Under the pieces are notes generated by a model. That model worked only from the letters and a program-made list of their open reading frames with translations, ran no database searches and had not been told where the DNA came from. A stretch of 64,000 nucleotides of DNA from Cryomorphaceae bacterium 1068 (GTDB lineage Bacteria > Bacteroidota > Bacteroidia > Flavobacteriales_D > Cryomorphaceae), in the NCBI GenBank assembly GCA_027214385.1, contig JAPVXR010000012.1, positions 1-64,000 of the forward strand. Direction: 5' to 3'. Position 1 is the stretch's first letter. Each line of letters starts with the position of its first letter. Both the position numbers and the translations under genes were made by a program. Shown here piece by piece: positions 58,370-58,697 of this stretch.

Positions 58370-58697
58370 CGATCGAGGTTTTTTACACTTTCCAATTCCA
58401 AATTTCGTTCTACCTAAAGGATTGGCAAAGTGATGTGAATAAAAATACTGCCTTTCTTCGGCGATGGTTGACAAGCATACTACATTCGTCATGATTTGTG
58501 TGAAGAGAAAATTCTGTCAATTCGAGTGAATTTCCCGAGTGTAAGGAGGGAAATTTGTATCGAGAATCAGAATTTTCGTGTGCAAGGCTGTTCTCGATAC
58601 TATTCGCTTGGCGCGAATCACTCGAACTGACATTGCCGCCATTCATGTTCAATTGACTTAATGAGTTCATTCAATATTGTTTAACAAATATCCATTG
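58370..58697. other. 328-bp divergent intergenic region
   Basis: No gene is visible. The main content is the palindromic element at 58515-58632. The rest is AT-rich and must hold the promoters of the mutL operon (minus) and the GH3 gene (plus). The GH3-proximal part after 58640 shows no clear box. Confidence 0.5.
58515..58632. repeat. 118-nt palindromic element with four-way-junction fold
   Basis: Outer stem P1: 58515-58529 with 58618-58632, 14 of 15 pairs, and the one mismatch (58520/58627) becomes a G-U wobble in RNA from the minus strand. Inside lie P2 (58530-58536 with 58548-58554, 7 bp), P3 (58557-58566 with 58591-58600, a perfect 10 bp) and P4 (58603-58607 with 58613-58617, 5 bp, extendable). 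Only four bases stay unpaired at the junction. From memory, words like GTATCGAGAA and TTCTCGATAC recur in intergenic palindromes of Flavobacteriia; I could not verify this here. Confidence 0.85.

Follow-up and report, generated by a model that had tools for sequence, protein, structure and literature searches.

The window, meaning the whole 64,000-nucleotide stretch of Cryomorphaceae bacterium 1068 DNA that was analyzed, contains a 118-base palindromic structure at positions 58515–58632, between two divergent genes. Its minus-strand neighbor is the small first gene of the mutL operon, and its plus-strand neighbor is a family 3 glycosidase gene fused to a beta-lactamase-type domain. The original prediction described the structure as a near-perfect four-way junction. 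Its sequence and coordinates in the window were confirmed, as was the sole mismatch in the outer stem, A58520/C58627. When folded as RNA, the segment 58505–58642 formed an outer stem and three inner helices on the minus strand (−52.2 kcal/mol, z = −6.6) and on the plus strand (−48.2 kcal/mol, z = −4.5). None of 200 shuffles matched the fold energy on either strand, which bears out the claim that the structure goes beyond chance. Single-stranded DNA spanning 58515–58632 gave the same fold (−30 kcal/mol, z = −6.3). The 10-bp hairpin formed by GTATCGAGAA and TTCTCGATAC encloses a 24-nt loop, and its stem can be lengthened by a few pairs.

The 118-base structure is two facing, inverted copies of a small hairpin repeat, and the four-way fold is their by-product. 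The units share their conserved arms and can therefore pair with each other, which produces the 15-bp outer stem and the 10-bp stem; the remaining junction arms are the units' own inner hairpins. The features of the locus are as follows.

58390..58440, minus strand: non-coding block that separates the element from the mutL operon gene and is conserved in G001, a genome of the same genus (alignment)
58515..58632, no strand: head-to-head (HH, tags outside) heterodimer of two REP-like units with a 22-nt spacer (sequence, unit search)
58515..58567, plus strand: left unit, with TGTCA tag, N (A58520) paired with N' (T58567), TTC/GAA stem, tandem GA/GA and inner hairpin (covariance model R1, 54.9 bits, E = 1.7e-9 in the window)
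58515..58519, plus strand: YGTCA tag belonging to the left unit, which stays unpaired when that unit folds singly (across 364 units, found with a search pattern that allowed at most one change in TGTCA, the first four bases read TGTC 305 times and CGTC 39 times)
58568..58589, no strand: spacer separating the two units (facing-pair spacers at other loci are mostly 4–90 nt)
58590..58632, minus strand: right unit, with TGTCA tag, N (G, 58627 on the minus strand) paired with N' (C, 58590 on the minus strand) and inner hairpin (covariance model R1, 58.4 bits, E = 3.3e-10 in the window)
58628..58632, minus strand: YGTCA tag of the right unit (same tag counts across 364 units)

The covariance model was built from 43 units taken from pattern-scan contigs together with the two in the window, where it gave no other convincing match. 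The unit consensus is YGTCA-N-TTCGAG-TG-(variable hairpin)-xG-TAT-CGAG-AA-N', laid out as TGTCA-N-TTCGAGTG-(10–40 nt)-TATCGAGAA-N'. The inner segment measures 13–40 nt, and its loops vary. Units are mostly 41–57 nt long, and the copies forming the window pair measure 43–53 nt. The tag is followed by the N-TTC/GAA-N' stem, the tandem GA/GA, a G-C pair, a short asymmetric loop and a second stem, which amounts to 4 bp, GA/GA, 1 bp, the loop and about 7 bp. The second stem is free in sequence, with its pairing kept. The two stems are separated by a near-invariant CGAG/CGAG that could form tandem G.A pairs, which are stable in DNA and RNA. The bases 3' of N' are not conserved (T follows N' in only 73 of 176 cases).

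Watson-Crick pairing between N and N' was seen in 90.7% of 364 units, where 42% would be expected. In 262 unselected units the inner pairs were Watson-Crick in 72–95% of cases, compared with 27–57% after shuffling, and this pairing appeared in a single exact register only. A 45-row alignment, whose rows had been picked for pairing, gave a covariation of 0.651 against 0.156 when shuffled, and all seven pairs of the inner hairpin changed on both sides. Across 178 different inner segments the inner stem averaged 6.4 bp, against 3.9 bp with shuffled 3' halves (unbiased shuffle). Because N:N' pairing holds in 91% of the 364 units and covariation extends to all seven pairs of the variable hairpin, we conclude that selection acts on the single-unit hairpin. 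The secondary structure of the family is now given by covariation.

The pairing between partners behaved differently. Among 104 facing pairs, core changes were one-sided in 118 instances and matched in 6, and N was equal between partners in 17 dimers and differed in 87, fewer equalities than chance would give (re-pairing test, one dimer per locus, p = 0.0055). The four-way pairing is therefore not selected; of the compensatory changes that had been proposed as a check, those within the 43–53 nt unit were found, along with further copies, and those across the junction were rare. The A/C mismatch had been taken as a sign of selection on minus-strand RNA. However, A58520 pairs with T58567 and the right-hand G with its own C, and since the partners' letters at N usually differ, the mismatch marks a heterodimer and is not evidence for such an RNA. 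It is thus highly improbable that the 118-nt pair works as one four-way-junction RNA or protein-binding cruciform. The fold is very stable on both strands and as DNA, and facing pairs are commoner than pairs inverted the other way, but many units are single, spacer length varies, and the partner-change counts largely refute the idea. Among neighbors less than 400 bp apart, HH arrangements were commonest (71), followed by tandem (57) and tail-to-tail-like ones (TT, 43), which were not rare.

A role in the 5' UTR of the mutL operon had also been suggested. The conserved block at 58390–58440 is probably the promoter region of that operon. Its position between the element and the operon start suggests that the element lies outside the transcript. 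Furthermore, the window copy is missing from G001, the sole same-genus relative (73% identical, with an intergenic region too diverged to show a junction or precise empty site). Both points tell against the suggestion. No terminator-like site was present in the window region, and at another locus a separate terminator comes after the unit; the element was accordingly rejected as an intrinsic terminator. Divergent genes are the rarest context of the family, and the window copy is most likely a neutral insertion between two of them.

Half-elements proved to recur in the genome when it was searched with the whole element and with the element's 10-base arm; GTATCGAGAA occurred 45 times and the reversed control 14 times. 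The covariance model placed about 26 units in the same genome at E values up to 10, and 23 below 0.001 (these statistics were drawn from searches and retrieved stretches). When applied to a sample of 346 genomes from the class, it detected units in 52. Scanning named genomes for the unit pattern gave at least 120 matching stretches of contig, and almost all of these were from Flavobacteriia. The expectation of a large family of scattered, mostly intergenic palindromes in Flavobacteriia was therefore correct. Its member is the half-element and not the 118-nt whole as supposed, given that singletons are common and the four-way fold arises only when copies face each other. The family was rightly called unnamed as far as Rfam is concerned: comparison with the window, the element (at a permissive threshold) and eight family loci gave nothing credible and nothing above the gathering score. 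Literature searches by core sequence gave solely unrelated matches among those listed. We describe a widespread Flavobacteriia repeat family for which neither Rfam nor, by sequence, the open literature searched gave a match.

Units crowd near the contig ends in four contigs of genome G000 (C10, C11, C18 and C31), so assembly breaks may hide more copies. In another stretch of G000 (L175, C1:132821-142705), long degenerate GTAGTCGATGG / CGTAGGGCGTAG tracts come after each of several single units. Two contigs labeled Candidatus Dojkabacteria (L098 and L103) carry units, with facing pairs in L098; these reflect either binning errors or spread across phyla.

In an enlarged set, with genes taken from simple open-frame calls, unit clusters lay between tandem genes in 122 cases, convergent genes in 74 and divergent genes in 14 (convergent versus divergent, p = 5e-11). 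Units are biased toward the 3' sides of genes; in the tandem contexts of a first set they lay a median of 39 nt past the upstream stop. They showed no leading/lagging strand bias. Sister species differ in which units they have. G387, with flanks that are 86% identical, lacks a facing pair that G336 carries, and G389 lacks a G336 unit that follows a stop codon and precedes a conserved intrinsic terminator. No clean insertion junction or target duplication was visible at these two sites, where the junctions are too diverged. At two of the G336 unit sites, G387 has other palindromes; a G387 stretch (L314, contig C32) carries GGGCTAAAGCCC, CCACGGCCTAAAGGCCGTGG and more at the intergenic sites of the G336 units in L308.

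Departures from Watson-Crick pairing are asymmetric between strands. On the YGTCA strand, G.T outnumbered A.C in the non-Watson-Crick cells by 75 to 25 (p = 5.6e-7). Split by orientation, sense units gave 30:6, antisense units 13:5 and divergent contexts 4:0. The antisense bias was not significant alone (p = 0.10), but antisense and divergent units together gave 17:5 (p = 0.017), and sense and antisense units did not differ (Fisher p = 0.48). An apparent bias in either orientation is suggestive, although not proof, of one DNA strand being recognized as a single strand independently of transcription. Singletons were more often sense than antisense (35 versus 17, p = 0.018), which may point to some added RNA-level effect.

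These data bear on a role in RNA, in which the hairpin would be selected in 3' UTRs, for example to stabilize or delimit mRNA, and dispersal would reflect such use. The 3'-side bias, the sense preference of singletons and the excess of G-U over A-C in sense units would all fit. We nevertheless consider this explanation unlikely, because the wobble bias is similar in antisense and divergent units, sites are not retained between sister species, the unit upstream of a separate conserved intrinsic terminator is not itself the terminator, and the window copy sits between divergent genes. A miniature inverted-repeat element moved by a DDE transposase could account for the inverted ends (TGTCANTTCGAGTGA, as 15-bp terminal repeats) and the short non-coding body. 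Such an origin is very unlikely: partnerless single units are frequent, the interior is not conserved, no transposase with matching ends was found, and no target duplication was seen at two sites with strongly diverged junctions.

The closest resemblance is to the REPs tagged CGTC, often TGTC, that are described in five phyla including Bacteroidetes. In Di Nocera et al. (2013; PMC3733652), these REPs mostly form HH dimers, with TT dimers rare, and the CGTC-2 and CGTC-3 families prefer heterodimers. They lie between tandem or convergent genes, on 3' sides and rarely between divergent genes, and have no dedicated tyrosine transposase. Each has an 8–9 bp stem with complementary AT at the first and second positions, a loop of 4–5 bases and an unpaired 3-base tail, mostly CCA. 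The Flavobacteriia units are alike in carrying a terminal YGTC tag outside the stem, in often forming tags-outside dimers with heterodimers preferred, in their intergenic distribution and in flanking no dedicated Y1 transposase. In contrast, their stem is broken by the tandem GA and the asymmetric loop, they have an extra hairpin of free sequence, they keep neither the CCA tail nor the two complementary A-T pairs at the start of the stem, and their length is mostly 41–57 nt in place of a short stem and loop. The units look like a structured relative of these REPs that, judging by the stem, loop and tail dimensions described in the text, belongs to none of the four families.

Two other systems offer partial parallels. 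GTAG REPs and REPINs with their RAYT (TnpA_REP) share the build of a tag plus a hairpin and the inverted pairs, and strand-specific single-strand recognition is the model for GTAG REPs; unlike them, the Flavobacteriia units have a YGTC tag, no Y1_Tnp gene exists in the genome that holds the window and none was found flanked by units. The ends of IS200/IS605 elements are a plausible analogy through single-strand hairpin recognition, but the units have neither an attached transposase gene nor a leading/lagging strand bias.

We therefore consider it likely that the element is a head-to-head pair of REP-like palindromic units, kin to the CGTC/TGTC REP superfamily, that would have spread as non-autonomous elements recognized in single-stranded DNA. 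This explanation draws on the observed unit structure, covariation, dispersal, presence and absence in sister species, 3'-side bias and wobble strand asymmetry. A mobile element is also the best supported of the three roles first listed. Recognition would act on the hairpin that the YGTCA strand forms when single-stranded, much as it does for REP/RAYT and IS200/IS605 ends, and the enzyme responsible may often be absent today. Paired units would persist chiefly as heterodimers, in which a perfect long palindrome is avoided. A unit in a 3' UTR would place a hairpin in the transcript, with an effect that is probably mild at most.

Several points weigh against this explanation: no mobilizing enzyme was found, neither a clean insertion junction nor a target duplication was seen, the wobble bias of antisense units is not significant by itself, and singletons prefer the sense orientation. 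The Y1 transposase (PF01797) showed no link to the units. It is absent from the genome of origin, and its occurrence is unrelated to that of units: it was no commoner in genomes with units (37 of 52, thus missing from 15) than in those without (195 of 294). The retrieved flanks of 30 PF01797 genes held no unit, and all-against-all BLAST at 120 loci revealed no recurrent neighbor gene. That the family represents Flavobacteriia-wide REP-like units with a conserved tandem-GA hairpin, mobilized in trans as single-stranded DNA by a non-RAYT enzyme, is a tentative proposal that we regard as rather unlikely; if true, it would account for the transposase noted as missing in CGTC REPs. The family in any case sharpens the question of how YGTC-tagged REPs multiply without RAYT, and the strand-specific wobble bias provides a handle on it. 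At two loci (L309, positions 2769–2802, and L310), full units have shorter related forms beside them, TGTCATTCCGAG... and TGTCAGTTCGAGCGGAGTCGAGAAC among others, which are possibly a link to the canonical CGTC/TGTC REPs.
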